Virus record (IMG/VR): IMGVR_UViG_3300005519_000015
Coordinates: 1-22,936 of that record
Reading direction: 5' to 3' (one strand)
DNA length: 22,936 bases
From: a virus
Positions 2,041 to 22,936 of the stretch are shown one piece after another. The notes under the pieces were generated by a model. The model worked only from the letters and a program-made list of their open reading frames with translations. It made no database searches and was not told the origin of the DNA. Position 1 is the first letter of the stretch. Each line of letters opens with the position of its first letter. Position numbers and translations under genes: made by a program.

Positions 2041-2220
2041 ATAGAAATGATCGCCCGGTAGTGTAGCCGCACGCTGCTACCGGGCTTTCACACCCAACAA
2101 TTCAACTCGATCACCGTGGAGCTTGCTCCGGTGGTCAGAGCCAGCCGGTTTTTTCAGTTTTCCGGCTGGCGGCGCCGTGGGGTGAGCTTCAAGGCTCACC
2201 CCCGGCCTTCCAGGAGACCA
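2041..2220 (+). promoter_or_regulatory. 180-base non-coding region with four tandem hairpins before terS
   Basis: Four inverted repeats fill this gap. The first has a 9-bp stem, 2053-2061 with 2077-2085, followed by three T. The second is 2109-2136: an outer 7-bp stem with one G-T pair, a 2-base bulge, and an inner GGAG/CTCC stem with a CTTG loop. The third has a 9-bp stem, 2140-2148 with 2162-2170, and a T-rich 13-base loop. The fourth has a 9-bp stem, 2179-2187 with 2194-2202, and loop TTCAAG. No convincing sigma-70 promoter is visible. Possible roles are a terminator set, a processing site, or a packaging recognition site beside terS; the sequence alone does not choose. Confidence 0.7.
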
Positions 2221-2658
2221 GTGACCAACTACCCTCAACTATCCCGGCAACAGAATTTGTTCGTCGGATATTACATCGAAACCGATAATGCCACTGAAGC
2301 CGCACGCCGCGCCGGGTACGCACACCTGCATGCCCACAAGCAAGCGCCGCGCCTTCTCAAGAAGCCGCAGATCGCTGAGGCGATCAAATTCGAGCGCGAG
2401 CGCCTTCGCGCCGTACACCGCGTAACCGCTGACCGAGTCATCGAAGAGATCGCCAAGATGGCGTTCGCGGAAGTAGACCCCAAGACCGGCATCAAAGGCT
2501 CGGACAAGGTTCAGGCGCTTTCACTGCTCGCGCGCCGGTTCGGCCTGTTGGTCGATAAGACCGAGATCACCGGCAAAGACGGCGCTCCGATCGCCACCAT
2601 CACGGCAGACGCCACGCCGGAACAAGCTGCTGAGGCGTACAAAAACCTCCTTCAGTAG
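2221..2658 (+). CDS. terS: Terminase small subunit (Terminase_2 / XtmA type)
   Basis: This gene encodes the DNA-recognition subunit of the packaging motor, which binds the genome at the packaging site and regulates the large subunit. GTG 2221 is chosen because AGGAG lies at 2212-2216. The frame stays open upstream to 2116, but that stretch forms the hairpins and reads unlike a terminase. The 145 residues show the Terminase_2 N-terminal helix-turn-helix pattern: LSRQQNLFVGYY, then NATEAARRAGY (about 23-33), then LLKKPQIAEAI. A long helical middle and an Ala/Glu-rich C-terminus (TPEQAAEAYKNLLQ) follow. Length is normal for the family. The stop TAG overlaps the GTG of terL by one base. Confidence 0.88.
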   Translation: MTNYPQLSRQQNLFVGYYIETDNATEAARRAGYAHLHAHKQAPRLLKKPQIAEAIKFERERLRAVHRVTADRVIEEIAKMAFAEVDPKTGIKGSDKVQALSLLARRFGLLVDKTEITGKDGAPIATITADATPEQAAEAYKNLLQ

Positions 2659-4166: not shown

Positions 4167-4175
4167 CTGGAGACG

Positions 4176-6128
4176 ATGACCGACGAGATCATCAAGGCCG
4201 CACAAGAGGCCTTTGAGGCCGCAGCCGAAGCTGAAGCCGACAACCGCCGCGAAGCCCAGGACGACATCCGCTTCGCGTTCCTTGACGGCCATCAATGGCC
4301 GGAAGCGATCCGCCGCGACCGTGAAGCCAACGGGTTGCCTTGTCATGAGGTGAACCGCCTACAGACCCCGATCAAGCAGGTGGTCAATGATGGACGGCTA
4401 AACAAGCCGAGCATTGTCGTGCACCCGGTGGACAGCGGGTCGGACCCCGAGACCGCTCAGATTTTCAACGGCCTGATCCGCCATATCGAGCAAAGCTCTA
4501 ATGCCGAGGTCGCATACGATACCGCCCTCGAATTCGCAGTCACGGCTGGTCTAGGCTACCTGCGGGTCAACACCCGGTATTCGGGCAAGAAATCCTTCGA
4601 CCAAGACCTTGTAATCGAGCGTGTCGCCGACCCGTTCTCGATCTACGGCGACCCCGAATCCACGGCCTGCGATTCCTCGGATTGGAACGTGGCCTTCGTC
4701 ACAGATTCCCTGACCAAGGCGGCGTTCGAAACCAAGTACGGCGGCGCCGATCCAATCGATTGGAAGACGGGCGGTTGGCGCGAATGCAAGTCGCCCTGGC
4801 TGGATGGCGACCGGGTTATGGTGGCCGAGTATTGGACCCGCGAGGAAGCCACCGAGACGATCCTGATGTTGTCGGACGGCCAAGTTGTCGAAGCCGACAT
4901 CTACTCCGCACAGAAGGAGATGTTCGACGCGCTGGGCCTGACTGTCGTCGGCGAGCGGGACGTCCCCAGCCACAAGGTCACACAGCGAATCTTGTCCGGT
5001 GCCGACGTGCTGGAGACCCGCGCCTGGGGCGGCTCCTACATCCCGATCATACCCTGCTTTGGAGAGGAACGATGGATCGATGGACGTCGCCATTACAAGG
5101 GCATCGTGAGGTCCGCCAAGGACAGCCAGCGGATGCTCAACTATTGGCGTTCGAAGTCCACCGAGGCCGTGGCAATGGCGCCGTTGACGCCGTTCATCGG
5201 TCCAGTCGGCGCCTTTGTGACCGACGCTGCCAAGTGGGCGACGGCCAATAGGTCGAGCCACGCCTACATCGAATATGACGGCGATACGCCGCCGCAGCGC
5301 CAGCCCTACGCGGGCGTCCCCGCCGGTGCGCTTCAAGAAGCTCTGAATGCCACCGACGACATCAAGTCGATCACCGGCATCTATGACGCCAGCCTAGGTG
5401 CGAGATCGAACGAGACCTCGGGCAAGGCCATCCAGGCGCGCCAGCGCGAAGGCGACGTCAGCACCTTCAACTACATCGACAACCTCAGCCGGGCGATCCG
5501 ACACACGGGCCGCATCCTTCTAGACCTCATTCCCAAGGTCTACGGCCAGCCCCGGATTCTCCGCATCCTAGGCCCGGACGGCAAGCCCGGCATGGTGCCG
5601 ATCAACCAGCCGACGACGGTCCCAGTGTTGGATGCGGACGGCCAGAAGGCCGGAATGATCGAGAAAATCTACGACATCGGTGCCGGGGAGTATGACCTTG
5701 TGGTCAAGTCTGGCCCGAGCTTCTCGACCCAGCGCGAAGAGGCCGCGACCCAGATGATCGAGATGATGCGGGCGAACCCCAGCATCGCGCCGATCATGGG
5801 CGATCTCATCGCTCAGAACATGGACTGGCCGGGCGCCGACGAGATCGCCCGCCGTCTGAAATCCATGCTGCCGCCGCAGGCGCAGGGCCAGAACCCGGAG
5901 ATCGAGCAAGCCAAGGCCGCGCTCCAGAAAATGGCCGCCCAGCTTCAGCAGATGCAGGCTGAGAACGCCGCGCTTCAAGCCGACAAGGCGCTGGAAGCCG
6001 AGAAGCTCCGGATCGAACAATTCAAAGCTGAGACTGACCGGATCGAGGCCGAAGCCCGCATTCGACAGGACCAGCTACAGACTTCAGCCCAGATCGCCGG
6101 ACTAACGTCTTTCGATCCGGGCCGTTGA
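4176..6128 (+). CDS. Portal protein (P22 gp1-like)
   Basis: This is the dodecameric ring at the capsid vertex through which DNA is packaged and ejected. The 650-residue product has the P22-portal pattern: an acidic Ala-rich N-terminus, the stretch VNRLQTPIKQVVNDGR near residue 60, RVADPFSIYGDPES near residue 155, a clip/stem region, and ITGIYDASLGARSNETSGKA around residue 400. Residues about 573-650 form a long Gln/Ala/Glu-rich coiled coil, equivalent to the barrel of P22-type portals that projects into the capsid. ATG 4176 follows a CTGGAGA ribosome site. It lies between terL and the scaffold, as in other P22-like phages. Confidence 0.93.
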   Translation: MTDEIIKAAQEAFEAAAEAEADNRREAQDDIRFAFLDGHQWPEAIRRDREANGLPCHEVNRLQTPIKQVVNDGRLNKPSIVVHPVDSGSDPETAQIFNGLIRHIEQSSNAEVAYDTALEFAVTAGLGYLRVNTRYSGKKSFDQDLVIERVADPFSIYGDPESTACDSSDWNVAFVTDSLTKAAFETKYGGADPIDWKTGGWRECKSPWLDGDRVMVAEYWTREEATETILMLSDGQVVEADIYSAQKEMFDALGLTVVGERDVPSHKVTQRILSGADVLETRAWGGSYIPIIPCFGEERWIDGRRHYKGIVRSAKDSQRMLNYWRSKSTEAVAMAPLTPFIGPVGAFVTDAAKWATANRSSHAYIEYDGDTPPQRQPYAGVPAGALQEALNATDDIKSITGIYDASLGARSNETSGKAIQARQREGDVSTFNYIDNLSRAIRHTGRILLDLIPKVYGQPRILRILGPDGKPGMVPINQPTTVPVLDADGQKAGMIEKIYDIGAGEYDLVVKSGPSFSTQREEAATQMIEMMRANPSIAPIMGDLIAQNMDWPGADEIARRLKSMLPPQAQGQNPEIEQAKAALQKMAAQLQQMQAENAALQADKALEAEKLRIEQFKAETDRIEAEARIRQDQLQTSAQIAGLTSFDPGR

Positions 6129-6165
6129 ACCGGGCAATGACGCCCAATCACCCCCAAAAGGATAA

Positions 6166-7059
6166 ATGATAGAAGATACGACCCAATCGGGAGCGGAAGA
6201 CGGCGGGCACGCTGACACTTCCGTCGAACAAGTCGTCACCGAAGCAGAGCTTCATGATGATGTAGGCCACGATCAAACGGACCCAACCGAATCCGAACAG
6301 GACGACGAGGGCAGCCCCGCTGACGAAGTCGAAATCGAGCTAGATGGCCAACGCTACAAGGTCCCCGCGACGCTGAAAGACGCGTTCACTAGGACCCAAG
6401 ATTACACGGCCAAGACCATGGCTCTCGCCGAAACCCGGCGCGCCGTCGAAGCCGAACGCCAAGCCATCGCGGCTGCGGCTGAGGCCCAAAAGGAACTGCT
6501 CGCCGAGACGTTTGAAGTCCATCGGTTAGAGAAGCTTCTCGCGGATCGCTACTATAACGGGCGGGTGAATTGGGATGCCTTGGAAGACGAGGACCCTGAA
6601 TACGCGGCTAGAGAGTTCCGGCGATTCACCGAGGCCCAGCGGGACTTGGACATCGCGAGAAACAATTTGAAGACGAAGGAAGAAAACCGTTCGAAGGAAC
6701 AGCAATCGCAGCGCGATCAGGCTCTTCGGCAGACGGGTGAAGTCCTCCGCAAAGAAATTCCCGGCTGGGGCCAGCCCCTCGCAGTCAAACTCATGGAGAC
6801 CGCCGCTCAGTACGGTGTGACCCACGAAGAACTTGCGAACGAGACCGATCCGCGCGTTTGGAAACTTCTCCACGCCGCGCATCTCGGTTCCCAAGCCAGC
6901 AACAAGCAGGCCGTCCAGGCCCGCGCTCAACAAGCCGCTCAGACGGCGCCCATCACGAAGGTCGGAGCCAAAGCGCCCCCGCCGTCGCCGATGTCGGAAC
7001 GTGCGAGCGTGGATGCGTGGATGAAGGCCCGCAACGAACAGGTCCGCAAGGGCCGCTAA
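6166..7059 (+). CDS. Capsid scaffolding protein
   Basis: This is a prohead assembly protein that directs coat polymerisation and leaves before or during packaging. The call rests on its position between portal and coat and on its character. The 297 residues have a very acidic N-terminus (1-60), a short 'IELDGQRYKVPATLKDAF' element (about 56-74), and long charged coiled-coil helices (about 80-130 and 145-195). An Ala/Gln-rich segment leads to a basic C-terminus (MKARNEQVRKGR), which resembles the basic coat-binding end of P22 scaffold. ATG 6166 has AAAAGGA at 6156-6162. No protease motif is present, so scaffold removal by self-cleavage is not suggested. Confidence 0.85.
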   Translation: MIEDTTQSGAEDGGHADTSVEQVVTEAELHDDVGHDQTDPTESEQDDEGSPADEVEIELDGQRYKVPATLKDAFTRTQDYTAKTMALAETRRAVEAERQAIAAAAEAQKELLAETFEVHRLEKLLADRYYNGRVNWDALEDEDPEYAAREFRRFTEAQRDLDIARNNLKTKEENRSKEQQSQRDQALRQTGEVLRKEIPGWGQPLAVKLMETAAQYGVTHEELANETDPRVWKLLHAAHLGSQASNKQAVQARAQQAAQTAPITKVGAKAPPPSPMSERASVDAWMKARNEQVRKGR

Positions 7060-7141
7060 CCAGTCCGCTCGTCGGACCACATAACCCCAAATAACGCGCG
7101 GCCCTGACGGCTGCGAGCGCCCAGCGGGCGCCATTTCTACT
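7060..7141 (+). promoter_or_regulatory. Coat-gene leader with three short hairpins and no clear ribosome site
   Basis: Between the scaffold stop and the coat start there are three consecutive hairpins. They are a 5-bp stem 7063-7067/7073-7077, a 6-bp stem 7098-7103/7109-7114 with one G-T pair, and a 6-bp stem 7117-7122/7126-7131 with loop AGC. The last ends ten bases before the TTG start, and the intervening CATTTCTACT has no purine-rich Shine-Dalgarno sequence. The arrangement suggests structured-leader control of coat translation or mRNA stability, but this is inference. Confidence 0.5.
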
Positions 7142-8323
7142 TTGGCTAATACCCTACTCACCCCCACGGCGGTTACCCGTGAGGCCCTTCGCATCCTCCA
7201 CCAAAAGCTGAACTTCGTTTCGACGATCGATCGCCAGTATGACGATCAGTTCGCGAAGACCGGCGCCAAGATCGGCGACAGCCTGAAAATCCGCCTGCCC
7301 AACAAGTATACCGTGGGCACCGGCGCGACGATCACCCCGCAAGACACGACCGAATCCTCGGTCACCTTGCAAGTCGCCACCCAGAAGCACGTCCCGATTC
7401 AGTTCTCTTCGGCTGAACAGACGATGAGCCTGGACGACTTCTCCAGCCGCATCCTCGAACCCGCCATGTCCGTGCTTGCCGCGAACATCGAGTACGACGT
7501 GATGTCGAACGTCTACAAGGACGTCTACAACTCGGTTTGGAACGGCGGCTCGGCTGCCACCCTGGCGAAGGTCGCGACCGGTCGCACCATGCTGCAAAAG
7601 GCATTGGCGCCGACGAACGATCGCTACGCCAACCTGAACCCTCAGGACATGCAGGACATCATCACGTCCGGCGCCACGCTGTTCAATCCGGGCAGCGAGA
7701 TCAGCAAGCAATACCGTGAAGGCTTCGTCGGTCGCCAAGGTGGTTTCGACTACCTGGAGAACTCGATGTGGTCGGCCCACACCCGTGGTGATGCAGCGTC
7801 CTACGTCTGCAACACCAGCACCGGCATCACGAGCGGTTCCAACACCGTGACGCTCTCGGGCGGGACCGGCACGATCAAGCAAGGCGACGTGTTCACGATC
7901 GCTGGCGTGTTCGCTGTCCACCCTGAGACCCGCGTGTCCACCGGCGTCCTGCAACAGTTCGTCGCCCTGGCTGACGGCACGACTTCGGTCACCGTCGCAC
8001 CGACCCCGATCACCTCGGGCGCCACGCAAACCGTGAGCATCGTCGGCGCGGGCGCGTCCAAGGCGGTGTCAGTGTTCGGCTCGGCTTCCACCGCTGTCGG
8101 TACCTCGCTGGCATATCAGAAGGGCGCCTTCGTCTTCGCGACGGCTGACCTGTATCTGCCGAAGGACACCGACTTCGCGGCCCGTGAGACCTTCGACGGC
8201 ATCAGCATGCGCGTTGCCCGTCAGTGGGACGTCACGACCGACAAGCTTGTTACGAGGCTCGATGTCCTCTACGGCTTCAAAACCGTACGACCTGAACTTG
8301 CGGTCCGCCTGCACAACAACTAA
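7142..8323 (+). CDS. Major capsid (coat) protein, P22 gp5-like
   Basis: This protein forms the icosahedral shell. The 393-residue product has the P22_CoatProtein pattern: an N-terminal arm MANTLLTPTAVTREALRIL, an HK97-type core with LDDFSSRILEPAMSVLAANIEYDV (about 97-120), and NLNPQDMQDII (165-174). A beta-rich insertion at about residues 215-305 includes GTIKQGDVFTIAGVFAVHP, comparable to the inserted I-domain of P22 coat. The C-terminus ends in a VLYGFKTVRPELAVRLHNN-type strand. The start is TTG 7142: the resulting N-terminus begins exactly where coat homologues are expected to begin, and no ATG lies nearby. A strong terminator follows the gene, fitting its need for independent high expression. 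Confidence 0.93.
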   Translation: MANTLLTPTAVTREALRILHQKLNFVSTIDRQYDDQFAKTGAKIGDSLKIRLPNKYTVGTGATITPQDTTESSVTLQVATQKHVPIQFSSAEQTMSLDDFSSRILEPAMSVLAANIEYDVMSNVYKDVYNSVWNGGSAATLAKVATGRTMLQKALAPTNDRYANLNPQDMQDIITSGATLFNPGSEISKQYREGFVGRQGGFDYLENSMWSAHTRGDAASYVCNTSTGITSGSNTVTLSGGTGTIKQGDVFTIAGVFAVHPETRVSTGVLQQFVALADGTTSVTVAPTPITSGATQTVSIVGAGASKAVSVFGSASTAVGTSLAYQKGAFVFATADLYLPKDTDFAARETFDGISMRVARQWDVTTDKLVTRLDVLYGFKTVRPELAVRLHNN

Positions 8324-8341
8324 TCCGAGCGAACGCTTGGA
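8324..8341 (+). other. Hairpin immediately after the coat stop codon
   Basis: A 7-bp stem (8324-8330 with 8335-8341, one G-T pair) with loop GAAC begins at the first base after the TAA of the coat gene. It is followed four bases later by the main terminator. It has no T-run of its own and may protect the coat mRNA 3' end or assist termination. Confidence 0.5.
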
Positions 8342-8345
8342 CACA

Positions 8346-8376
8346 GGGTCGCCCTTCGGGGCGGCCCTTTTCTTTT
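8346..8376 (+). terminator. Strong Rho-independent terminator after the coat gene
   Basis: A 9-bp GC-rich stem (8346-8354 with 8359-8367, one G-T pair) closes on a C(TTCG)G tetraloop, which is exceptionally stable in RNA. It is followed by TTTTCTTTT (8368-8376). This is a textbook intrinsic terminator. Because further structural genes follow on the same strand with no obvious promoter, it probably works as a partial terminator that lowers expression of downstream virion genes relative to coat. Confidence 0.9.
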
Positions 8377-8395
8377 CCACTTCCCAAGGAGGTCC

Positions 8396-8710
8396 GTGAA
8401 TCCGTTCCATTGGCTTGAATCCGCCACCGTAAAAATCGACGCCAGCACGACGAGCGCGAATGCCGCCTTGCTGAAGATGCCCACGGGCATCACCCAAATC
8501 CGGCTCTACAACAGCGGCTCCGTGCCGGTGTTCATCCGGAAGGGCACCGACTCCACCGTCACCGGCCTGATCTCAGATATGCCGATCGCGCCGGGCTCGG
8601 TCGAAGTCCTGACGCTCAACAACAACCCAACCGCGCCGATCACCCACGTCGCGGCAATCACTGCCAGCGGTACAGCCAGCCTGTACGTCACCGTGGGGCA
8701 AGGCCTCTAA
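8396..8710 (+). CDS. Small beta-rich virion protein (putative head decoration)
   Basis: GTG 8396 is preceded by a near-perfect ribosome site, AAGGAGG at 8386-8392, directly after the coat terminator. The 104-residue product is rich in Thr, Ser, Ile and Val, has almost no charged surface helices, and looks like a small beta-sandwich (VKIDASTTSANAALLKM, IRLYNSGSVPVFIRKG, VEVLTLNN, SLYVTVGQGL). Placement right after coat and the high-expression ribosome site fit a decoration or head-surface protein. No named family is recognised, so the role is inferred from context only. Confidence 0.65.
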   Translation: MNPFHWLESATVKIDASTTSANAALLKMPTGITQIRLYNSGSVPVFIRKGTDSTVTGLISDMPIAPGSVEVLTLNNNPTAPITHVAAITASGTASLYVTVGQGL

Positions 8711-8713
8711 GCG

Positions 8714-10639
8714 GTGGCCGTCCATCATGGTGGCCGTGGGCCGGGTCACTTGGCCCGGCTGCTCGGCACGACAGTCGCTGTCGATCCCGGTGTTCTGGAA
8801 TGGCCGAACTATCCGGTCACGATCACCGAAGACCTCTCGACCTTCGGCTCGTCCACTGAGACCGCGTTCGCGCCGACGCCAATCGAATGGCTGAAGACCG
8901 ACTACGCGCCGACCGCCAACTACGTGACCACGATCGGCACGCCCAGCGGCGCCCAGTGCTTCATGAACTGGGCCGCCGGGGGATCGAACTCGGACGGCAT
9001 GGTGACGGCGTTCACAGGCGCCCCAGCCCGCGTGAAAGCTGCGACCGGCAACCTTCTCATCGGCGGCGCCTATGAGAGCCAGAACAGCCCTGTCCCGCAC
9101 ATCATCGCGAACGTCGATACGATCGTCGCGGCGGCTGGTCACACCAACTACGTCATCGCGCCCAAGCATTCGGACGGCGCATCGATCTCAGCGTCGGGCG
9201 CTGGTCCTGACTGGCATCGCGCTCGCGAAATCTGTCGCCGCGTCGGCGCGCCGTCCTCGCCGTACTGGGGATGGATTAGCGACACCACGCTGTTCAATCG
9301 CCGGTTCTCGACACCGCGTGATTCCACAGACGTCGCGACCAAACTCACGGATCGCGTCCAGAATTCTTGGTGGGGTGGCACGCCCGCCGCGACCGCCCAC
9401 ACCGACCAAGCGCACATGCAGGGCGATGACGTCGCCATGGGCTACTACGGCGGCTCTCACGCCCGCGCCCAGTATGTCCAAGCGCCGTATTACGCGAGCC
9501 GGATCGCCGGGAACCCGGCCTTTATCCCGCATCAAAACCGCTACTCAGCGGAGACCACGAACCAGACCGCAGGCGGCTTTGTCTGCAACATCGCCACGCG
9601 CGGTAGCCTGACCGGGCACACAGCCGATGTTCTCTACACGGACAACACGTCGGCTTCCGCCGAGTGGTCGGTCTCGATCGTCAGCGGCGTCCTGAAGCTC
9701 TATCGGGCCGCGACCGCCACCTACAACACGAACGGCTACACGGTCCTCAAAGTCCGCATCATCCGGAACGGAAAGGCGAACTGGGCCTACGTCAAAATCT
9801 ACCTGCTGGACCTGACGCCAGACGGTTCGAAGTCCGCGTACCTGAATTCGCAGTGGCTGGTCCGTGAAGACGCCTTTGGCGGCAACATCACCGGCCCCGC
9901 CTACAGCTTCGCCATTTGCCTGCGCCCCCGTTGGGCGGCGGGCGACGCGGCGGCCAAGGTCGTCCGCACCACTGTCGGCTCCGGCGGCGGCGGGCCGTTC
10001 ATGCAGATCAAGGGATCGGCAAACCAGAACGTCGGCATGTCCATGCCGAACACATCGGCGGCCACCGGTTTCAACTTCGACCAACCGACGTCACAGGGCT
10101 TCACCAATGGGCGCGGCCTTCAGTGGCTGTTCGGCGCGTTCGACACCGCAACGGCTGGCGCAGCCACCGGCGGCGGGACCGGCAAGATTCGGACCGACAG
10201 CTTGGGCGTCAACACGCTGAGTGCGGTCTCGACGACTGGAACCGTCAACCTCGGCACCGACCTCAATATCGCGACGATCGGCAACCAGGTTTTCCCGACG
10301 ATCGGCTCATCGGTCGCGGCGGGCGGCAGCCTCATGAACGCGGACATCGTGTGCATCTGGGAAGCCCCCGGCTACGTCGATTGGGGCAACACCGCGATGC
10401 TCGATCTCGTCCGTGATCCGACCACGCGCAAGCCCGTCTTGGGCACAACGCGGGGCAGCGATGCGCCGGGCACCGTGAACGGATTGGCGCCCATCAACTG
10501 GATGCAGGGTCCGGCGGGGAATTGGGCCGCAGGCGCCAACCTCGCCAAGATCAACATCAACGACGGCACCTACTTCTGGGACGCGACCGACCGCGTGGAC
10601 CCCGAGGGCGGCGTCGCCATCACAACGGTAAATACCTAA
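8714..10639 (+). CDS. Fibre/spike-like protein with degenerate SGNH-hydrolase and lectin-like domains
   Basis: This 641-residue protein has two regions. Residues about 40-250 follow the SGNH/GDSL hydrolase order: TFGSSTET (G45-S47 in place of GDS, S47 as nucleophile candidate), NWAAGGSNSDG (85-95, block II Gly), LLIGGAYES (114-122, where GxND should be, Asn absent), and TDQAHMQGDD (D231 and H234 in a DxxH arrangement). Residues about 280-640 are beta-rich, with AYSFAICLRPRW and DIVCIWEAPGYVDW, and resemble LamG/concanavalin-type lectin folds. Glycan binding or deacetylation at the cell surface is a reasonable inference. GTG 8714, four bases after the previous stop, has only a weak AAGG ribosome site. 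The start is less certain than the body. Confidence 0.6.
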   Translation: MAVHHGGRGPGHLARLLGTTVAVDPGVLEWPNYPVTITEDLSTFGSSTETAFAPTPIEWLKTDYAPTANYVTTIGTPSGAQCFMNWAAGGSNSDGMVTAFTGAPARVKAATGNLLIGGAYESQNSPVPHIIANVDTIVAAAGHTNYVIAPKHSDGASISASGAGPDWHRAREICRRVGAPSSPYWGWISDTTLFNRRFSTPRDSTDVATKLTDRVQNSWWGGTPAATAHTDQAHMQGDDVAMGYYGGSHARAQYVQAPYYASRIAGNPAFIPHQNRYSAETTNQTAGGFVCNIATRGSLTGHTADVLYTDNTSASAEWSVSIVSGVLKLYRAATATYNTNGYTVLKVRIIRNGKANWAYVKIYLLDLTPDGSKSAYLNSQWLVREDAFGGNITGPAYSFAICLRPRWAAGDAAAKVVRTTVGSGGGGPFMQIKGSANQNVGMSMPNTSAATGFNFDQPTSQGFTNGRGLQWLFGAFDTATAGAATGGGTGKIRTDSLGVNTLSAVSTTGTVNLGTDLNIATIGNQVFPTIGSSVAAGGSLMNADIVCIWEAPGYVDWGNTAMLDLVRDPTTRKPVLGTTRGSDAPGTVNGLAPINWMQGPAGNWAAGANLAKININDGTYFWDATDRVDPEGGVAITTVNT

Positions 10640-10678
10640 CCCCACCCCCTGGGCGCTGACGCGCTCGCCTGGAGCCCT

Positions 10679-11317
10679 TTGAGTTTTGATTCCTACAGCG
10701 GCCTTCTGGCTGCCATCGCCAATTGGACTGAACGCCACGACCTGACCGACCACATTCCGGATTTCATCCGGCTTGCCGAAGCTCAGATCAACTGCGTGCT
10801 ACGCGTCCACCAAATGGAAGCCCGCGAGACGGTCAGCGTCAGCGCGGAATACCTGGCACTTCCCGCCACCTATCTCGATGGCTTGACGATCCGCCTCAGC
10901 GACGGCGCCTCTGTGTGGTCGCTCGATCCAGCACCCCGCGAGCTTCTCGACAGCGCCGGTGTGCAGCCGGGTCGCCCACGCGCCTTCTCGATCGTCGGAA
11001 ACGATATCCAATTCTATCCGGCGCCTGATCAGACCTATACGGCGCGGCTCACTCACTACGGGACGATCCCGCCGCTCACGGAAGCCAACCCCAGCAATTG
11101 GCTGTTGGAGGGGCGCCCCGACGCATACCTGTATGGAACGCTTCTCCAGGCTGCCGTCTATCTCGTGGATTCCGGCTTGGCCGCGACGGCGAGCGACGGC
11201 TTCAACAACGCCTTGGCGGGCGTCCGCCGCATGCAACGCTCGATGGCTGGCAAGCTCACAACCGATCTCGTCAGCCTGACGGGACGCGGCGGCTACGACA
11301 TCACGAGGGATCGCTGA
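10679..11317 (+). CDS. Head-tail adaptor protein (SU10/gp4-like adaptor family)
   Basis: This protein probably forms the ring beneath the portal that joins head and short tail. The 212 residues show the pattern common to this adaptor group in podoviruses: MSFDSYSGLLAAIANWTERHDL at the N-terminus, then IPDFIRLAEAQINCVLR (about 25-42), a beta-rich middle (LPATYLDGLTIRL, FSIVGNDIQFYPAP), and a C-terminal helical bundle beginning near ILL/YLYGTLLQAAVYL. TTG 10679 is chosen because GGAG lies at 10671-10674 and the N-terminus then matches the family. Its TGA overlaps the next ATG at 11317. Confidence 0.8.
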   Translation: MSFDSYSGLLAAIANWTERHDLTDHIPDFIRLAEAQINCVLRVHQMEARETVSVSAEYLALPATYLDGLTIRLSDGASVWSLDPAPRELLDSAGVQPGRPRAFSIVGNDIQFYPAPDQTYTARLTHYGTIPPLTEANPSNWLLEGRPDAYLYGTLLQAAVYLVDSGLAATASDGFNNALAGVRRMQRSMAGKLTTDLVSLTGRGGYDITRDR

Positions 11318-13754: not shown

Positions 13755-13975
13755 TGCCGCGAAAGCCGTGGCTCCAGCGGTTCGGTACGAGCCTGAGCCA
13801 ACTCGCCAACGTCATTTTCCTGAACGGCGATGAGGACGAATCCATTTCGTCGCGCGCCTGGAAGCTGAAGGCGGCGGGCCAACCGCACGCCGACCTCTAT
13901 GTCTCGATCATCGATTCCATCTTCGGCGACGGCCATTGCCGCCGCGCCGTGGAATGGGACGAAGGGAATGCTTGA
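13754..13975 (+). CDS. Small conserved phage protein (73 aa)
   Basis: ATG 13754 shares its first A with the stop of the upstream gene; TTG 13751 just before it is an unlikely start. The 73 residues contain the pattern DEDESISSRAWKLKAAGQP (about 26-44) followed by IIDSIFGDGHCRRAVEWDE (about 52-70). A 'DESxSxRAW ... IDxxF..GHC..A...E' signature is familiar from small proteins in many proteobacterial phages, where no activity is known. The invariant-looking His-Cys pair might bind metal, but that is speculative. The gene overlaps the next one by four bases (TTGA). Confidence 0.65.
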   Translation: MPRKPWLQRFGTSLSQLANVIFLNGDEDESISSRAWKLKAAGQPHADLYVSIIDSIFGDGHCRRAVEWDEGNA

Positions 13976-15759
13976 GAACCCCGCTCACGGTCCCGCCGGG
14001 CCTGTTCAGCGACACCACATCCCACTCCGCAAACTCGCGTTGGGCTGACGGTTCGAACGTCCGCTTCACCGACGAAGGTCAGGCCGAAACGATCGGCGGC
14101 TGGGAGAGCATCGTGCCCACCCTGCTGTCAGGCGTCTGCCGGGCCGTCTTCCCCTGGACGGACAATGCCGCGACGCTAAGCCTGGGGCTCGGGACACACA
14201 GCCATCTCCAGCTTTGGCAGGGCGGCGCCCTGTTCGACATCACGCCGACGCTGGCCATGCCGTCCGCCACGCTGGGCGCTGCGCCTCTGTCGGTCACGAG
14301 CGGTTCGCCGACCGTCACCGTCACGCATGCGAACCACGGTCTGACCACGGGCGACACCATCATCGTCACCGGCGCCACAGCCGTTGGCGGGATCACGCCG
14401 AACGGGACCTTCGTCGTCACCGTCACGGGCGTCGGCAGCTACACCTATGTGTTCGGATCGAACGCATCGTCTACGGCCACCGGCGGCGGATCGGCAGTCG
14501 TGGTCGCGCCTCAGAATCCGTTCCAGGCTGGCCAGATCGATGGGACCGGATCATCCGGCTACGGTACCGGCGGCTATGGCATCGGCGGCTTTGGTGAGCC
14601 GTCCTCGACCGATTTCTTCCCGCGTACGTGGTCGATGGGCGCTTGGGGTCAGAACCTCATCGCCTGCCCGCGCTTCGGAACCATCTACGCCTGGACGAAC
14701 GATCTCGGCGCCGACGCTCAGCCGCTGGCGAATGCCCCGCGCCAAGTCACACACATGCTGGTGGCGGGCACGCGCCAGATTTTTGCGCTCGGCTGCAATG
14801 AAGAGGCGAGCGGCAAGTTCAACCCGCTCTGCATCCGCCATTCCAGCGTCGGCCTCAACACCGAGTGGAACACCGGCACGGCCACCACGGCGCGCGAATA
14901 CGTGTTGCCGGGCGGCGGCAGAATTGTCGCTGGACGCCTGATCGGAGACCGCATCTTCGTCTGGACGAACGAGGCGCTGTTCCAAGGAACCTACGTCGGG
15001 AACGTCACCCAACCTTGGAGCTTCACCCGCGTGTCCAAAGGCGCGGGCCTCATTGGTCCCAATGCTGCGGTCGTCGTCGGTCAAACGGCATTTTGGGTCA
15101 GCCCAGACAGCCAATTCATGTCCTGCACGCTGGGGGGCGTACCCGCGCCAATCCCTTGTGCGATTCACAAGGATTTCGCCGACAACCTCGCCGCCAGCCA
15201 GTCGGACAAGATCGTCGTCAGCGGCATCGGGGCTCATGGCGAAATCCGGATCGACTATCCTGATGGCCGCGATGGAATCGAGAATTCCCGCTTCCTGTTG
15301 CTGAAGGTCAGCGGCCCCGTCGCGGGCGTTTGGTCTCGCGGCGAAATGGCTCGCACGGCCATGGTGGAAGCCGGGCCGTCTTCGTATCCGGCGGGCACGT
15401 CGCCAGACGGAAATCTCTACTGGCACGAGCGCGGCCACAGCGCGGACGGCGGCGTGTTGCCGTGGTTCGTGGAGACGTCCGACCAACAACTCGACGATCA
15501 AGTCTCGTACTTCGTCATGGGGTGTTGGCCAGACTTCAAGGACCAGCAAGGCCCGGTCTCGATGACGCTGACCTCACGGTTCAAGCCCAACGGTCCGGCT
15601 GTCGTCAAAGGCCCGTACGCCGTGGCTCCGACCGACGACAAAACCGATATGCGCGCCTCTGGCCGCTACTTCCAAATCCGCTTCAGCGGGGCATCTGCCC
15701 CCTCGTACTGCCGCATCGGCTCGCCTGTGTTCGACACGCGTCCGGGCGGACAGCGATAA
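13972..15759 (+). CDS. Tail nozzle/hub protein (P22 gp10-like, packaged-DNA stabilisation)
   Basis: This protein probably plugs the portal-adaptor channel and forms the tail nozzle. The 595-residue product begins RTPLTVPPGLFSDTTSHSAN, with ADGSNVRF and ETIGGWE nearby, an N-terminus characteristic of this group. It continues as a beta-propeller-like body with repeated strands and Trp-containing motifs (TWSMGAWGQNLIACP, GTIYAWTN, GDRIFVWTNEALFQG, GQTAFWVSPDSQF). Residues about 100-165 look like an inserted immunoglobulin-type domain (SGSPTVTVTHANHGLTTGDTI). TTG 13972 is chosen over the upstream in-frame ATG 13936 because GAAGGGA precedes it and it overlaps the previous stop as TTGA. Its place just before the ejection proteins supports the call. 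Confidence 0.8.
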   Translation: MRTPLTVPPGLFSDTTSHSANSRWADGSNVRFTDEGQAETIGGWESIVPTLLSGVCRAVFPWTDNAATLSLGLGTHSHLQLWQGGALFDITPTLAMPSATLGAAPLSVTSGSPTVTVTHANHGLTTGDTIIVTGATAVGGITPNGTFVVTVTGVGSYTYVFGSNASSTATGGGSAVVVAPQNPFQAGQIDGTGSSGYGTGGYGIGGFGEPSSTDFFPRTWSMGAWGQNLIACPRFGTIYAWTNDLGADAQPLANAPRQVTHMLVAGTRQIFALGCNEEASGKFNPLCIRHSSVGLNTEWNTGTATTAREYVLPGGGRIVAGRLIGDRIFVWTNEALFQGTYVGNVTQPWSFTRVSKGAGLIGPNAAVVVGQTAFWVSPDSQFMSCTLGGVPAPIPCAIHKDFADNLAASQSDKIVVSGIGAHGEIRIDYPDGRDGIENSRFLLLKVSGPVAGVWSRGEMARTAMVEAGPSSYPAGTSPDGNLYWHERGHSADGGVLPWFVETSDQQLDDQVSYFVMGCWPDFKDQQGPVSMTLTSRFKPNGPAVVKGPYAVAPTDDKTDMRASGRYFQIRFSGASAPSYCRIGSPVFDTRPGGQR

Positions 15760-15800: not shown

Positions 15801-16922
15801 ATGGGTTTATTCTCCAGCAAAAAGAAGACGACTGAAACTTCTAACCAAACGACCACGACGACCCCGACTGTACCGGACTGGATTCTCCAGCCGTCGCAGG
15901 GACTGGCCGGTCAGATCAGCGACCTGAGCAAGCTCGATCCCGCAAGCCTCGTTGCCGGGACGAATCCGCTGCTCAACCAAGCCGCAGCGGGCGCGACGAA
16001 CCTGACCTCGATGCCCTGGAACTTCGACACAGCCGCCACCTATGCGCGGCAGGCTGGCGATGCTGGACCGCAGTCCGTCCAAGCCGCCAGCGTGCTCGAT
16101 AATCTCGGCGCCTATAAGTCCGGCTATGAGAAGGAGGTTCGAGACGCCGCCCTAGCCGACTACGATTTCAGTGCGGGCATGACCCGTGCGCAAGATCAGC
16201 TTGCACGCGCTGGAGACGCAACGTTCGGCGGGTCCGGCGGCGCCATTCAGACCGCGCTTTCGAACGATGCGATCAACCGTGGGCGCGGATCGCTTTCGGC
16301 CAACCTGAACGATCAGGCCTTCACCCGTGCGACCGCATTGTCGGAAGCCGATGCCTCGCGGCGTCAGGCCGCCAGCCTCGCCAACGCCCAGTTCGCCGAA
16401 CAGGCGCTCGGCCGCCAGATGGATGCAGGCAAGCAACTCACCGATCTCTCGTCGCAGTACGCGGCCAATGAGCGGGCCAACACTCAGACACAGTTCGATC
16501 TAGGCCAGTTCATCCGGAGTATGCAGCAAGATTCCTTGAACGCCCCGCTGACGATGCTGGATACGCAGGCATCACTATTGGCCAAGCTGAACCCGGCCTT
16601 GTTCGCCGGTGAGACGTCCACCGGCACGAAGTCGGGCACGGCGACCACGACCAGCAGCGGTTCGCTTCTCAGCAAGCTCGGCCAAGCCGCGCAGGTCGCG
16701 GGCACGATCGCCGCCATGTCTGATGAGCGGCTGAAGACCAACATTCGCCGCATCGGCACCCGCGACGACGGTCTCCCCGTCTACGAGTTCGAATACCGGT
16801 TCGCGCCCGGCCAAACCCACGTGGGCGTCATGGCCCAAGAAGCCCAGGCCGTGAAGCCTGAGGCCGTGATGATCCACCCGACCGGATTCCTGATGGTCGA
16901 TTATTCGCGATTGGATTCCTGA
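15801..16922 (+). CDS. Putative ejection protein with C-terminal self-cleaving Peptidase_S74 domain
   Basis: ATG 15801 has AAGGA upstream. The 373-residue protein starts with a short KKKTTETSNQTTTTTPTVPDW segment. A long Ala/Gln-rich helical region follows (about 90-260, e.g. YDFSAGMTRAQDQLARAGDA, RRQAASLANAQFAEQALGRQ), as in virion proteins that are ejected with DNA. Residues 307-373 form an intramolecular chaperone domain: SDERLK holds the Ser307-Lys312 pair of the Peptidase_S74 self-cleavage site, followed by HVGVMAQEAQAVKPEAV and the end MVDYSRL. Cleavage before S307 would release a 67-residue chaperone. The domain usually sits on fibres and spikes, so a fibre role cannot be excluded. Its stop overlaps the next start. 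Confidence 0.72.
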   Translation: MGLFSSKKKTTETSNQTTTTTPTVPDWILQPSQGLAGQISDLSKLDPASLVAGTNPLLNQAAAGATNLTSMPWNFDTAATYARQAGDAGPQSVQAASVLDNLGAYKSGYEKEVRDAALADYDFSAGMTRAQDQLARAGDATFGGSGGAIQTALSNDAINRGRGSLSANLNDQAFTRATALSEADASRRQAASLANAQFAEQALGRQMDAGKQLTDLSSQYAANERANTQTQFDLGQFIRSMQQDSLNAPLTMLDTQASLLAKLNPALFAGETSTGTKSGTATTTSSGSLLSKLGQAAQVAGTIAAMSDERLKTNIRRIGTRDDGLPVYEFEYRFAPGQTHVGVMAQEAQAVKPEAVMIHPTGFLMVDYSRLDS

Positions 16923-18037
16923 TGTTCGGTATCAAACCCGGCGCGCTGAGCGACGCCTCGCTCTCCGATAAACTGTCCGCCCTCGGCTCCGCACTCAGCG
17001 GTGACATGGAGGGCGTTCAAGCCATTCGCGACCGACGCGAGCGCGAGAAGCTCGCCAGCATTCTGGCGGCTGAACTCGATAAGGGCCGCACGCTCCCGCA
17101 AGCCCAACCCGAACCTGAACCCGTGCGGGCGCCCCGCGTCGATCCCATGGGTCAGGCGTCAGCCGATGTCCTGTCCCGGCTCCAGAATTCTGGCGGCCTC
17201 ATGCAGGCTCAACAGGTCGCCGCACCCGCGATCGATCCCGTGTCGGTCCAGCTTCCCAAGGCTGATCCCCAGCAACGCGGTCTGTTCGATCGCATGCTAC
17301 CGATGCTCGTCCAGGCGGCGGGCCATGGCGTGGACATCAACGGTCTGACGTCGCTCATCCGCAACGAGGACTATGTTCGCGGCCTGCCGCAGCGCGACCA
17401 ATCCGCCGCGCGCGTCGATCCCCAAGGTGCGATTGCCGACGCCCGCGAACGGGCCAAGCCCAACATCCAGCGGGGCAATCCGGGCGACCGCTTCTTCGAC
17501 ATCCGCGATGGGGCTGCGACTGAGATCGCGGCCATCCCGGAACGCGCCGTGCGACCGAGCATGGATACCCTGACGGCTGAAGCCTATGGGCGTTACCAGC
17601 GTGGTCAGGCGACGCCAGAAGACAACCGTCTGATCACGCGCTGGGAAGCCGGGTCCGATGGATTCTATCGCGAACGAGCGCCGCAGCGTGAAGCCAAGCC
17701 GCCGTCACCGCGTCAGGCCGTAGAAGCCAAGATCGCAGCCGGTCAGTCCCTGACGGCTGGCGAGCAACAGCTTTGGGACGCTACTCACCGCCAGCCAACT
17801 GGTTCTTCCGGTGGCGGCGCGTACGGCGATGATGAAACGGTTTCGCCTGTTGCACCCCCGAAGCCAACCCCGCCGTCGAAGCCCAACCCCGCCCTGCCGA
17901 AGAAACCCGCGCCAGCCGCCCCGGCGGCACCCCGCGTTCAAGCCGGACCCGTCCGCGTAAAGAGCGCCGCTGAAGCACGAGCCCTGAAGCCCGGCACTGT
18001 GTTCATCACCCCGGATGGCCGCCGCAAGGTTCGCTGA
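16922..18037 (+). CDS. Putative second ejection/internal virion protein (371 aa)
   Basis: ATG 16922 overlaps the previous stop (TGATG). The N-terminal part (1-60) is helical and charged, and the middle (about 95-245) is a mixed helical region with [13 protein letters not shown] low-complexity Pro/Lys/Ala linker (about 305-345) leads to a conserved-looking tail, [25 protein letters not shown], which forms a small beta unit typical of phage internal proteins. There is no enzymatic motif. It lies between the S74 protein and the giant polyvalent protein, with overlaps on both sides, so a role in the same ejection assembly is likely but not shown by homology. Confidence 0.6.
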
Positions 18038-21000
18038 TGAGGGACGAGTGGGACGAATTCAAAGACGCCCCGGCGGACGAATTCGCAGAATTCCAAGACG
18101 CACCGCCGAAGCGTAGCAACACCGAACGGTTCACCGATAACGCCCGTGATGCCGCTGCTCGTAACCCCACCGTTGCGAGCGCCCGGAACACGCTGGCGAA
18201 TCCTGGCGCTGCCGTGCTGCCGGTCCGGCCCTTTACCCCACCCTCTCTGATCGACGCCCTGCCGGGTGGTCGCATGGGATTGGCGCTGGCGGGCAAGGTG
18301 GCCGACAGCCTCAACTTGCCCCTGCCCGCGATTCTGGACGCTAAGAAGGAACGCGAACGCCGCGACGCCTATGATCAGCGTTCAGCGGGCGATCCCTTCT
18401 ATGACGTGGACGGCGGACTCGTGGACAAGGCCCGCGCGGGTCTCGCCACCCTCGGTGGTCAGCTAGCCGGGGGGATCACCGATCCTCAGAATCTCGTTGC
18501 GCCGGGCAAGGGCGTCGTGACGCGTGTTCTCGGCGCGATCGGCGCCAACGCTGGCGGTGACGTTCAGACCCAGGCCGCCGACCTCAAGGCTGGCGTTCAA
18601 GACCGCTACAATGCGGTTCAGACCGTTGCTGCCGGTGGTCTCGGCGGCGTGATCCAAGGTGGTGCTGAAGGCGCCGCGCCGTTGGCTCGTGCCGCTGGCC
18701 GGGTCATTGCGCCCGTCGTCGATGATGCCAAGCGCGCCGCTGGGAATCTTGCCCGTGATGTCGGCGATCGGCTGGATCGTGTCGGTGATCGGCCCATCGC
18801 ATCGCGCGCCAACGATGGCGCCGATCCATACGCAGAATTCCATGACGCCCCTGCGCCCGCGAAACCCCAACCCGCCCAGCGCTCAACAGGATTCACCGAG
18901 GCCGATGCCCGGCGGATCGCGGGCGATCTTGGCGCGACCGTTACGAGCGGACGCCGCACCGCTGAGCACAACAGGGAAGTCGGCGGAAAGCCGAACTCCC
19001 GTCACCTCACCGGACAAGCCGTCGATCTCGTCCCCCGCCGGGGTCAGACCATGCGCGAGCTTGAAGCCAGCGTCCGGCAATCCATGCCCGGCGCCCGCGT
19101 CATCAACGAAGGCGATCACGTCCACGTCCAGTGGGGCGACCGTCCTGCCGCAGCGCCGCGTTCGCGTCCTCGCCCTGAATCCCTAGTCGATGACCTGGAG
19201 CGCGGTCTCATCGCAGATGACGTTGCGCGAACAAGCTCAACCGGTGGTATAGATGACGCCGATGTCCGACCCGCTGAACGATCCGGACGACCCGATGAAC
19301 CGGCTTCTGACCAAGGAAGAGCGGGCGGCGATCGTTTGGGCGACGATGCGCATGCGGAAACTGGGAATTCTTCCGAACTTGCCTTCGGCCACATCGACGA
19401 CAACCACGCGCGCCTCTACGACCTCGGCAAGAAAGCCGAAGTAGGCGAGACCGACGACGCCCTTGCCGACGACTTGGCGCGGCGGATGTCCGATCTCATG
19501 GATTGGACGGACGCTGGGCTAAACCGCCGGGAGCGCAGGGCGTTGGCGCGGGGCGAACCTGTCGCTCGTCGCCGCATGGTCGAAACGGCCCGCGAATACG
19601 CCCGCCAGTTTGACGAGCACGGGCCGGAGGCTCGGACCTCGTTCTACGATCCTGACAAATATCACGAGGCGATGGCGGCAAGCCGGGCCGCGCCGCGAGC
19701 CGGAAACCCGATCCCCGAACGAGCGACACCCCGCGCGCCGGAAGTCCAACAATCGGCGACCGACATCACCGATCGCGCCCTGGACCTGATCCGCCGTGGC
19801 CGCGACGTTCGCGAAGATCGCGGCCCCAGTCTGATGCAATGGCTGGAACGCCAAGGCCTGCGCAACGAGGGCGGCGAACTGTCCGCCATCGATGCTGATG
19901 TCTGGCATCGGGCCAAGCCGTTCCGCCAAAAGATGATCCGCCCTGAGGGCCGATCGCTGGATGACGCTGCCGTCGCCGCTCAAGAGGCGGGATTCCTGCC
20001 CCAACGTTTCGGCGACGCTGACACCCGCGCTCGCCCGCAAGACCTTCTCGACGCCATGCGGGAAGAATTGTCGGGCCGTCCCCGCTACGCCCGCGAAGAC
20101 ATCGACGGCGCCGAGTTGCGCCAGCATGCCGACGAGATCGAAGAGACCATGCATGCGGCGGGCATCGACCCGCGCGGCCTGACCAACGCTGAAGCAAAGG
20201 CGGCGATTGAGCGCTACTGGTCCAGCGATGTGGATGCTCCTCGGTCCGCAGTGCTTGCCAGCGGCGGAAAGACCGCACAGGCCCCGCTTTCGCGGTCTCG
20301 CGATTTCAAGCCCGTCACTGACGATGTGGCTGGCCCGTACAACGGCGAAACCGTCAGCGCCGTCATTGCAGATTTGCGCCGGTCACTGCGATCGGTTCAC
20401 CGCCAAGGGCGCTTGCGATCTCCGAAGGCCGCTGGCGAGTTCAACACTGAGAATTCAAGCTTACGCACCAAGCAGAGCAACGACCTACCGACGTTTGCGC
20501 ACGAACTTGGCCACCATATCGAGTTCGACTCCCGGCCCGCCAACGTCCGCGCGGCGATGGAGAAACACGCCAGACTTCTGAAGACCTTCGACTACGACCC
20601 CAAAAAGAAACGCCGATACGAAGGCTTCGCGGAATGGTTCCGCAAGTACGTGACCGACCCGGCTGAAGCCAAGGCGTTGGCGCCCGACTTCCACGCGGAT
20701 TTTGAAGCCGCGATGCGCAAGGACATGCCGAAGCAATTCGACGCGATCCTGAAGGCGCAGCGTGACTTTGAGACGATGGTGCGCGCGGCCCCCACCGAAG
20801 TTCTGAAGGGGCGTATGAAGCTGACCGACTCCAAAGATTGGAGTCAGCGCGTGATGGATGCTTTCCAAAAGGATGGCGTCAGCGGCGCCATCAGCGACTT
20901 CCTCGACAGCGTCTGGGCCAACCGTGTGGACCGGACGATGGTGTTCCAGTTTCTGACGCGGAAGCTCGACCGAGTTCACGCCCGTAACCACGGCAAGCCG

Positions 21001-22936
21001 ATGGAGATCAAGGACAGCGAGAACCCGCACGTCCAAGCCCGCTTGCTGGCTGAAAACGTCGAGAAAGGGCTGAACGACGTCTTCGAAGGCGTGACGCCAT
21101 ACCGTGGCGCCGAGCCCGAAGGACCCAGCCTCGCGGACGCTATCCGAGAGGCGTTCGGAAAAACCTGGACCACAGAGAACCGCGCCGACTTCGCCGCGTA
21201 CCTGATCTCGCGATCGTTGATCGACGACTGGAATTTGCACGCCAAGGGCGAGATGCCCGGCAAGCCCGACCTCTATTCGCGCGACTACCACCAAGCCGCC
21301 GTGGACAAATGGGACCGCGACCATCCGACGTTCGCGAAGGCGGCTGAGACCCTCTACGAGTTCGAACACAACCTTGCCCTCAAGGATGAGGCGGCAGGTT
21401 TCCGTAAGGCGGGCACCGCTGACGAATGGCGCCAGCGTCGGCCCAACTATGTGCCTGTAAAGCGCAGCGTCGCTGACAAGATCGCCAACGGCATGAATGA
21501 CCGGGCAGCGCCCGGCAATGGTTCGGGTGGCGACGGCATCAAGAAGCGCGGCGGTTCCGACCGCGACCCCATCGACCCGTTCATGTCGATCATGGAACGG
21601 TCGATCTCCCTGTCGCGTCGGATCGGTCTCAACGAGATCGCAGGTTCGATGCGCGGGCTGGCTGAACGCGCCGGGCTGGGTTCTGCCGAATACATCGAGC
21701 TTCTACCGAAGACCCAATTGAAGGCGTTCCAGGTCAACTTCCGCCAAGCCCTTGAGAAGAAAATGAAGGATGCCGACGACATCCTCGATTTCGACGAAGC
21801 GGCCAATCTGGCGGCAGCGGCTGAGCGCCTGATGACGGACAGCGATCTCGTCACGATCTTCAAAGCCATCGGCTTGCAGCCCCGTCCGGACGAACGCGTG
21901 ATCATCCATTGGCAGGACGGTGAGCCGAACCCTGTTCTGCTGGCTGACGGCAAGTTTGGTAAGGAACTCCACGAGGCCTTCACGGGGATGACGCCTCAAG
22001 TTCAGAGCAAGGTCGTCGATGCCATCGCGGCTGGAACGACGGCTCTGCGAATGGGTGCCCTGCGCCTCAACCCTGAATTCGCGCTGGTGAACCCTGTGCG
22101 CGACACCGTGTCGTTCGCGTTCAACCTGGAAGAGCCCTTTATCCCCGTGGTCTCCACGGTTCGCGGCGCCGTATCGCTGGCGACCGACAAAGGCTTGGTC
22201 AAACGGGCGCGCGCGGCTGGCTATCTCGGCGAGGGCATCGAGGGCATGGCAGCGGGTCTGAATCCCCGCAACGCCGCCGAAGCTGGACGAATGGTCGGAA
22301 AGCTGAGCGGCACGCCGCTGCGCGAAATGGTCTTCCCCATGCACAAGATTCCGTGGCGGCTCATCAAGGGTACAGCCACGGCGCTGGGCCGGATCGTGGA
22401 TTTCTCTGAACAGGCGACGCGCATCGAGGCTTATCGCCTGGGCGAAGTCGCCGCGAAGAAAGAGGGGCTGTCGCCATACGAGGCCAGCGTCAGAGGCGCC
22501 ATGACCCGCGACGCCTATGATCCGAAGGCGCGCGGCGCGAAGATGCTGACCGCAGCGCGGCTGGCATTCGTGTTGAACGCCTATCTCCAGGGTCTATCGA
22601 AATATTCGCGTATCCTGACCGGCAGCGGCTACGACCGCCCGCGCCTGGAACACATCGCGGGTCTCTTCAAGCCTGCGAAAACTGCCGCTCAGAAACGTCG
22701 CCAAGGCCACGCGCTGAAAGCCTGGACGTTGACCGCCGTGTTCGCGGCATACGCGGGGTACAATGCGTTCCTTCTCAAAGACGACGACGACTTCAAGTCG
22801 CTCAGTCCGTTCGTTCGCAGCACCAACGTCGTGATCCGGATCGCACCGGGTCGGGATGGCCTGTTGAAGCTGCCGATCAAGCCGCACGAGGTGGCGCCGC
22901 TTCTCAGCTTGGCGGAACGCATGGTGGAGGAACGTT
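18037..22936 (+). CDS. Giant polyvalent ejection protein with two metallopeptidase sites (partial, continues past window)
   Basis: The frame is open from ATG 18037 (overlapping the previous stop) to the last base, at least 1633 residues. Order: three EFxDAP-type repeats (F8, F19 and F268); an M15_3 peptidase (about 285-367) with [23 protein letters not shown] (H323, D330) and DHVHVQW (H363), the Zn ligands of peptidoglycan D,D-/L,D-peptidases; a disordered linker; and a gluzincin-like site [11 protein letters not shown] (H822, E823, H826) with EGFAEWFR (E862/E866). An LPD38-like region follows at about 1330-1530 ([21 protein letters not shown]), then a hydrophobic stretch at about 1559-1580. 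Such proteins travel in the capsid and enter the cell with the DNA. The M15 domain would open the cell wall; the second peptidase could process virion or host proteins. The coding-frame signal is odd at 19253-19381. Confidence 0.82.
19253..19444 (+). other. Nested +1-frame open frame inside the giant ejection gene
   Basis: A 63-codon frame ([19 protein letters not shown]...) lies in the +1 frame of the giant gene, with GGTGG before its ATG. Over 19262-19381, 32 of 40 codons of this frame end in G or C, against 16 of 40 in the main frame over 19261-19380; in the next 20 main-frame codons the value returns to 18 of 20. The first 40 residues look protein-like ([20 protein letters not shown]); the rest does not. 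This could be a small overlapping gene, or a trace of two compensating frameshifts in the main gene. It is not annotated as a gene because neither explanation is settled. Confidence 0.35.

Follow-up and report, generated by a model that had tools for sequence, protein, structure and literature searches.

A Giant Protein in the Ejection-Gene Slot of a P22-like Phage Carries an M15 Domain and a Predicted Zincin-like Metallopeptidase on One Chain

Introduction

Phage-type polyvalent proteins are organized around a zincin-like metallopeptidase hub, and the main text of Iyer et al. (PMC5512222, 2017) places the LPD38 domain in the phage type only and a DD-peptidase in a limited subset of these proteins. 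Here, we describe a giant protein, designated P0001, which is encoded in the ejection-gene slot of a P22-like late operon and combines a Peptidase_M15_3 domain with a predicted zincin-like metallopeptidase. Its gene (18037..22936, + strand; 1633 residues seen, cut by the contig end) is the last in IMG/VR virus record IMGVR_UViG_3300005519_000015, positions 1 to 22,936; this whole stretch of 22,936 nucleotides is called the window below. P0001 resembles the proteins presented in the main text of PMC5512222 in being a large multidomain chain with a zincin and LPD38. That main text names neither an architecture of M15, zincin and LPD38 nor P22.

Among ejection proteins, P22 gp16 and T7 gp16 are, like P0001, the products of the last and largest ejection gene (PMC8954989). 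T7 gp16 also has a wall hydrolase, but this is a transglycosylase, while gp16 of P22 and Sf6 lacks the T7-type hydrolase; the swapping of wall-hydrolase domains between ejection proteins has already been described (PMC8954989). Vibrio phage VvAW1 is another P22-like phage, and its gp01 is likewise encoded by the last late-operon gene after the ejection genes and has a homologous zincin and C-terminal part. However, gp01 is 3640 residues long, is annotated as a DarB-like antirestriction/DNA methylase and carries helicase/methylase cargo instead of M15; the M15-type endolysin of VvAW1 is encoded by a separate gene. The virion RNA polymerase (vRNAP) of phage N4 is likewise ejected and of giant size, with a cargo enzyme followed by an HExxH domain and then a long C-terminal part, but its cargo is an RNA polymerase. 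No homology was detected between the C-terminal parts of P0001 and N4 vRNAP (hhalign probability 4–5%), and a profile of this part of P0001 gave no credible PDB match. The giants of seven IMG/VR loci (L071–L077) share LPD38, where scanned, and those of L071–L076 also have an alike C-terminal part, but none of the seven giants contains M15. The parts found in P0001 are already known; apparently, what is new is that a single protein in this slot unites M15 and a zincin.

Domain Architecture of P0001

The reading frame of P0001 (18037..22935, + strand) starts with ATG, has 0 internal stops and is open at the contig end, in agreement with the uninterrupted frame reported in an earlier sequence-only reading of this DNA. 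All residues quoted there were at their given positions: H323, D330, DHVHVQW at 360 (with H363), HELGHHIEF at 822 and EGFAEWFR at 862. Based on the closest full-length relatives (L071–L076), in which ~1130–1150 residues separate HExxH from the stop, full-length P0001 is expected to have ~1950 residues. The G+C content at third codon positions (GC3) is uniform along the gene.

The Peptidase_M15_3 domain occupies residues 284–368 (18886..19140, + strand), with H323, D330 and H363 as zinc ligands. PF08291 matched residues 300–364 at 40.6 bits (curated cut-off 23.2; E 3.1e-10), and the endolysin family phrog_894 also matched this region (E 5e-11). In an alignment of 39 sequences, R, N, S, H, G, A, D and H were invariant, including the three zinc ligands. 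The AlphaFold2 model of the domain, built, like the zincin model below, from an alignment consisting of window and contig sequences, had a predicted local distance difference test (pLDDT) value of 85 and a predicted template modeling (pTM) score of 0.75. Its closest solved structure was the zinc DD-peptidase 1lbu (Foldseek probability 1.00; Z 8.5, root-mean-square deviation 3.2 over 93 residues), followed by Hedgehog, VldE, LysECD7, ChiX and VanY, which we take to be known or expected members of the M15/Hedgehog superfamily. The M15 assignment proposed for residues 280–370 is confirmed by profile and by modeled fold, and the domain is a predicted peptidoglycan peptidase.

The second metallopeptidase of the sequence-only reading, an HExxH domain at residues 780–900, is supported by homology, residue invariance and a predicted fold that resembles zincins, although it had no convincing Pfam match of its own. 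Residues 766–943 (20332..20865, + strand) contain HELGH (822–826), E862 and E866; from its composition, P0001 would be expected to contain 0.04 HExxH motifs by chance. No convincing Pfam match was obtained for the HExxH..E region, and MPTase-PolyVal (PF18818) remained unmatched at E values up to 10. In one scan of viral contigs, the region was homologous to 35 loci; it is also homologous to VvAW1 gp01 (28% identity). Residues H822, E823, H826, E862 and E866 were invariant in an alignment of 18 sequences and again in one of 31. In the AlphaFold2 model (pLDDT 89.7, pTM 0.82), a helix at the N-terminus is followed by three strands, the helix containing HExxH (model positions 57–61) and later a helix that bears both glutamates (97 and 101). 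According to the main text of PMC5512222, polyvalent-protein metallopeptidases have the same layout of a helix, strands, an HExxH helix and a Glu helix. In comparison with PDB, Foldseek probabilities reached 0.99; the nearest structures, at Z values of ~8 and close to background, were the LF-type catalytic domain, PPEP-1/Zmp1, Certhrax and PprI, and all 50 matches listed were of these types. Residues 766–943 are a predicted zincin-like metallopeptidase, supported by the alignments more than by the fold match.

The zincin is followed by a conserved C-terminal part (20866..22782, + strand), identified by sequence comparison, which includes NYVP and a stretch matching phrog_9854 (residues 1310–1525), a family whose function is unassigned. 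LPD38 (PF18857) begins at residue 1583, and the rest of it is lost at the contig end (22783..22935, + strand); the match covers positions 1–46 of 189 with an E value of 0.041, which is below the cut-off in strength. A full and strong LPD38 was found at the corresponding place in L015, L031, L049, L071–L073, L075 and L077. Because the spacing between zincin and LPD38 agrees with that in the full-length relatives, we accepted LPD38 in P0001. The LPD38-like pattern suggested earlier is therefore present, from residue 1583 to the visible end, but not at residues 1300–1560, where phrog_9854 is found instead. With several disparate domains in one chain (M15 and zincin) and LPD38 supported by the relatives, P0001 has the character of a polyvalent protein, as had been suggested.

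Between the two peptidase domains lies an unnamed EGGELSAxDADV module (residues 556–727; 19702..20217, + strand). It shows 36–44% identity to giants of Pseudomonas phage UFJF_PfDIW6 and Cobetia phage Carin1 and also occurs in L050–L070. In the giants of these otherwise different phages, HExxH usually follows the module. For residues 60–245, a likeness to L071–L076 was noticed by eye; BLASTP gave no match there, and we do not claim it.

Relatives of P0001 and the Position of the Wall Hydrolase

A search with exact peptide patterns found 0 relatives of the whole protein, and 0 relatives were matched among plasmids. When the subfamily alignment was used as the query against bacterial genomes, 1 distant locus was obtained. 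The closest relatives in the C-terminal part were L071–L076, with 26–29% identity over most of that part. The distance from HExxH to the stop was mostly ~1000 residues in the relatives found first, somewhat less than in these closest ones. The zincin-to-LPD38 part is fixed among the relatives, and the N-termini are variable: the cargoes include a helicase/methylase in VvAW1 (from annotation, with a Helicase_C hint), a methyltransferase in L046, a phage lysozyme in L077 and M15 in P0001.

An M15_3 match was present in 5/49 related records and inside a giant protein in 0/49. In L170, M15 was found in the gene directly upstream of the giant, and the corresponding gene of L169 has both M15 and a transglycosylase (SLT)-type match. 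An SLT transglycosylase was encoded in the gene upstream of the giant in L072, L073, L075 and UFJF_PfDIW6. In L077, Phage_lysozyme2 lies within the giant, at the same place as M15 in P0001. The nearest M15 domain (73% identity over 64 residues) belongs to a 522-residue ejection-type protein of L089 (5344–6912) and L090. The 522-residue protein is encoded after a phrog_598 DNA ejection protein, and its C-terminal tag is the one that also ends the 371-residue protein encoded just upstream of P0001. Taken together, these sequences indicate that a wall hydrolase moves among neighboring ejection genes, while the zincin-to-LPD38 part stays.

In L089/L090, the gene after the 522-residue M15 protein starts with MSDPYAAFSRKADADPYAGI. 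Separately, L213 has a small M15-type gene directly after a tagged ejection gene, and its zinc motif contains an insertion (SYHMRRDAAGNPMARDS), as in L091 and L093. The M15-type proteins of these three loci are possibly divergent or inactive forms.

Ejection Gene Cluster

The genes of the window follow the order TerS, TerL, portal, scaffold, coat, adaptor, and tail and ejection genes. Profile matches identified the head and packaging genes at 2116..11317 (+ strand), with gene starts at 2116 (TerS), 2658 (TerL), 4176 (P22-like portal), 6166 (scaffold), 7142 (P22-like coat) and 10679 (SU10-type adaptor), all on the + strand; the portal matched the P22 type with 658 bits. Further downstream lies the gene of a 607-residue virion structural protein (13936..15759, + strand; phrog_3287, E 8e-44), annotated as a “stabilization protein” in relatives.

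The last three genes, encoding proteins of 373 and 371 residues and P0001, parallel the P22 order 7-20-16. The 373-residue protein (15801..16922, + strand) matches the DNA ejection protein family phrog_4287 (E 2e-23). The 371-residue protein (16922..18037, + strand), assigned to the ejection slot by position, had no family match, and no phage homolog of it was found. Its gene overlaps the start of P0001 (TGATG), as in the stop-start overlap between P22 genes 20 and 16. The cassette order of a phrog_598 DNA ejection protein, a tagged gene and a motif gene is shared with other phages. P0001 is the last gene of the ejection cassette; the contig ends inside it, and the region downstream is unseen. 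The P22-like head genes and the cassette order bear out the ejection-gene slot proposed earlier, which corresponds to the position of P22 gp16. In Sinorhizobium phage phiM5, internal virion proteins at the equivalent place are annotated as detected in the particle proteome. From the gene position, we infer that P0001 is delivered into the host with the DNA.

The 373-residue protein ends in an S74 auto-processing chaperone domain (PF13884, residues 307–356, 41.1 bits; SDERLK at the domain start). Here, S74 thus ends an ejection-type protein and not a fiber; S74-tailed structural proteins are similarly placed in Sulfitobacter phage phiGT1 and Rhizobium phage RHph_N2, and such proteins are common at this place among related phages. 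The S74 domain noted two genes upstream of P0001 is therefore present, but it is too weak alone as a sign of a proteolytically matured injection apparatus, and we rejected it as evidence of processing.

C-Terminal Tag and N-Terminal Tandem Motif

The 371-residue protein ends in a tag of the EAR.LPPGTRF.TPDGR.KVR type (17942..18034, + strand), recognized in the sequence and by pattern matches. P0001 starts with a tandem aromatic motif (residues 4–24; 18046..18108, + strand), motifs of this kind also opening the last ejection gene in other phages, and a third copy (residues 263–272; 18823..18852, + strand) stands directly before M15. Likewise, in L077, a motif copy precedes the phage lysozyme.

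A DNA pattern made from the P0001 motif matched 20 contigs. In 12/20, the motif lay within the first ~40 residues of a late gene, in two tandem copies; for 11 of these 12, the upstream gene was in the contig, and all 11 upstream genes ended in an LPPGTRF.TPDGR.KVR-like tag. The first, stricter tag pattern gave 1 match only. The later tag pattern matched 58 contigs, in 56 of which the match was at most 30 residues from the end of the open reading frame (ORF); 2 matches (L215, L239) were spurious, leaving 54/58. Significant tandem self-similarity in the first 80 residues (p ≤ 0.01) was observed for 27/37 genes following a tag versus 5/224 other ORFs of the same loci, where the 37 genes are a sample from pattern matches after removal of near-duplicates and the control ORFs were chosen mechanically. 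Several of the 10 remaining following genes have one motif copy. The tag and motif loci include L173, L174, L177, L180, L182, L183, L185–L188 and L192, and the motif variants include DPFAEFxDAP, DPWAEF, NWDSIG, WDQFPDAP and others.

In the related phages RHph_N2 and UFJF_PfDIW6, this tag is absent and the N-terminal tandem motifs are of other kinds, and P22 has neither the tag nor the tandem motif. The gp16-slot proteins of P22 (L243:11484-13313), phiM5 (L010:15280-16824) and L045 start with a short domain of the FPDGT..EDI..A type. Since these starts replace tandem motifs, the gp16 slot seems to use alternative N-terminal adaptors. Other short N-terminal tandem repeats, apparently unrelated, were seen in giant or ejection proteins of L048, L015, L077, L002 and L012 (LPEGFxLI, SLLAEIDAAL, AFDDITSRYG, NRYDELL, SFDDLIP). 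Among isolated phages, none with the tagged gene of L192 and none with DNA close to L236 were found. A literature search for the motif strings found none in a phage context, and the pair of tag and motif on neighboring ejection genes is apparently previously undescribed.

In T7, the N-terminal part of gp16 binds the C-terminal part of gp15 (PMC8954989), which suggests that the tag and the motif may bind each other. By this analogy, we tentatively propose, at a little less than even confidence, that in many short-tailed phages the tag of the gp20-like protein and the motif of the gp16-like protein may interact in the head or during conduit building, so that cargo past the motif would be loaded into the ejection machine.

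Proposed Function of P0001

Based on the above results, we consider it fairly probable that P0001 is a polyvalent protein serving a P22-like, short-tailed phage as its last and largest ejection protein, and that it acts as follows. P0001 would be packed in the head and leave through the tail before the DNA, helping to form a conduit across the envelope. On the way, M15 would break the peptidoglycan at its peptide links, a task that in the relatives may fall to the transglycosylase or phage lysozyme of the same cassette. The zincin-to-LPD38 part would travel on in the direction of the cytoplasm or inner membrane; there, the most likely substrate of the zincin would be its own polyprotein, a host protein being the less likely one. 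For P1 DdrB, metallopeptidase action on its own chain was inferred (main text of PMC5512222). The tandem N-terminal motif would probably dock P0001 to the neighbor whose C-terminal tag precedes it.

Several observations weigh against this reading. The Z value of the zincin model is ~8, near the level of background or chance arrangements; since it is little above background, the residue invariance carries more weight than the fold match. P0001 had no PHROG match to P22 gp16, and their N-termini differ; gp16-type ejection proteins diverge fast (PMC8954989). The gp16 proteins are said to have a transmembrane helix (PMC8954989), and hydropathy predicted no strong transmembrane segment in the visible part of P0001, whose contig is incomplete. 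Pfam found no wall hydrolase in the gene upstream of the giant in L071, L077, L046 and L015. Finally, N4 vRNAP, with HExxH in its large C-terminal part, is packaged uncut (main text of PMC5512222), so the P0001 zincin need not process anything.

It is conceivable, though unlikely, that the zincin is an effector that cuts host proteins in the cytoplasm, with M15 opening the wall and no self-processing. Zincins that are secreted or delivered are among the nearest PDB folds, as is the regulator protease IrrE/PprI, and host targeting is among the options in the main text of Iyer et al. (PMC5512222). However, the same zincin occurs with very different N-terminal cargoes (the DarB-like methylase/helicase of VvAW1 and others), which fits a chassis function better. 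To the same low degree, we would credit a zincin that has ceased to act as a protease and plays a structural or regulatory role within the C-terminal part, as the HExxH-bearing domain of N4 vRNAP seems to do. The C-terminal domain of that polymerase inhibits it and comprises an HExxH subdomain with ~1100 helical residues behind it (PMC12633501), and the relatives of P0001 share such a layout, with the zincin and about 1000–1150 residues after it. Nevertheless, comparison with the N4 domain revealed no homology, and the invariance of HExxH and both downstream glutamates in 31 diverse sequences would be unexpected without catalysis.

Two further explanations concern M15. That it was recently captured and is unused in this lineage would agree with its absence from the giants of the 49 related records, but we think this improbable: no zinc ligand is missing, the conserved Ser, Arg and Asn are all retained, and GC3 stays uniform throughout the gene. 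Least probable of all is that M15 is a phage endolysin or lysis helper and P0001 not an ejection protein: although phage relatives of M15 are mostly small solo endolysin-like ORFs (77/80 of at most 300 residues) and M15 genes lie close to holins in related phages, the closest M15 is part of an ejection-type protein that bears the same C-terminal tag, and the genes are arranged as in ejection cassettes. These ejection-gene contexts make such a role unlikely.

Conclusions

P0001, the largest ejection-slot protein of a P22-like phage, appears to combine a wall hydrolase that cuts peptides with a second protease. The field asks how P22-like phages get through the cell wall and which function the zincin, so frequent in polyvalent proteins, has; this one protein and two point mutations (H323A and E823A) could be used to approach both questions. 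The pair of tag and motif provides a simple sequence signature for ejection genes and is possibly their docking rule.

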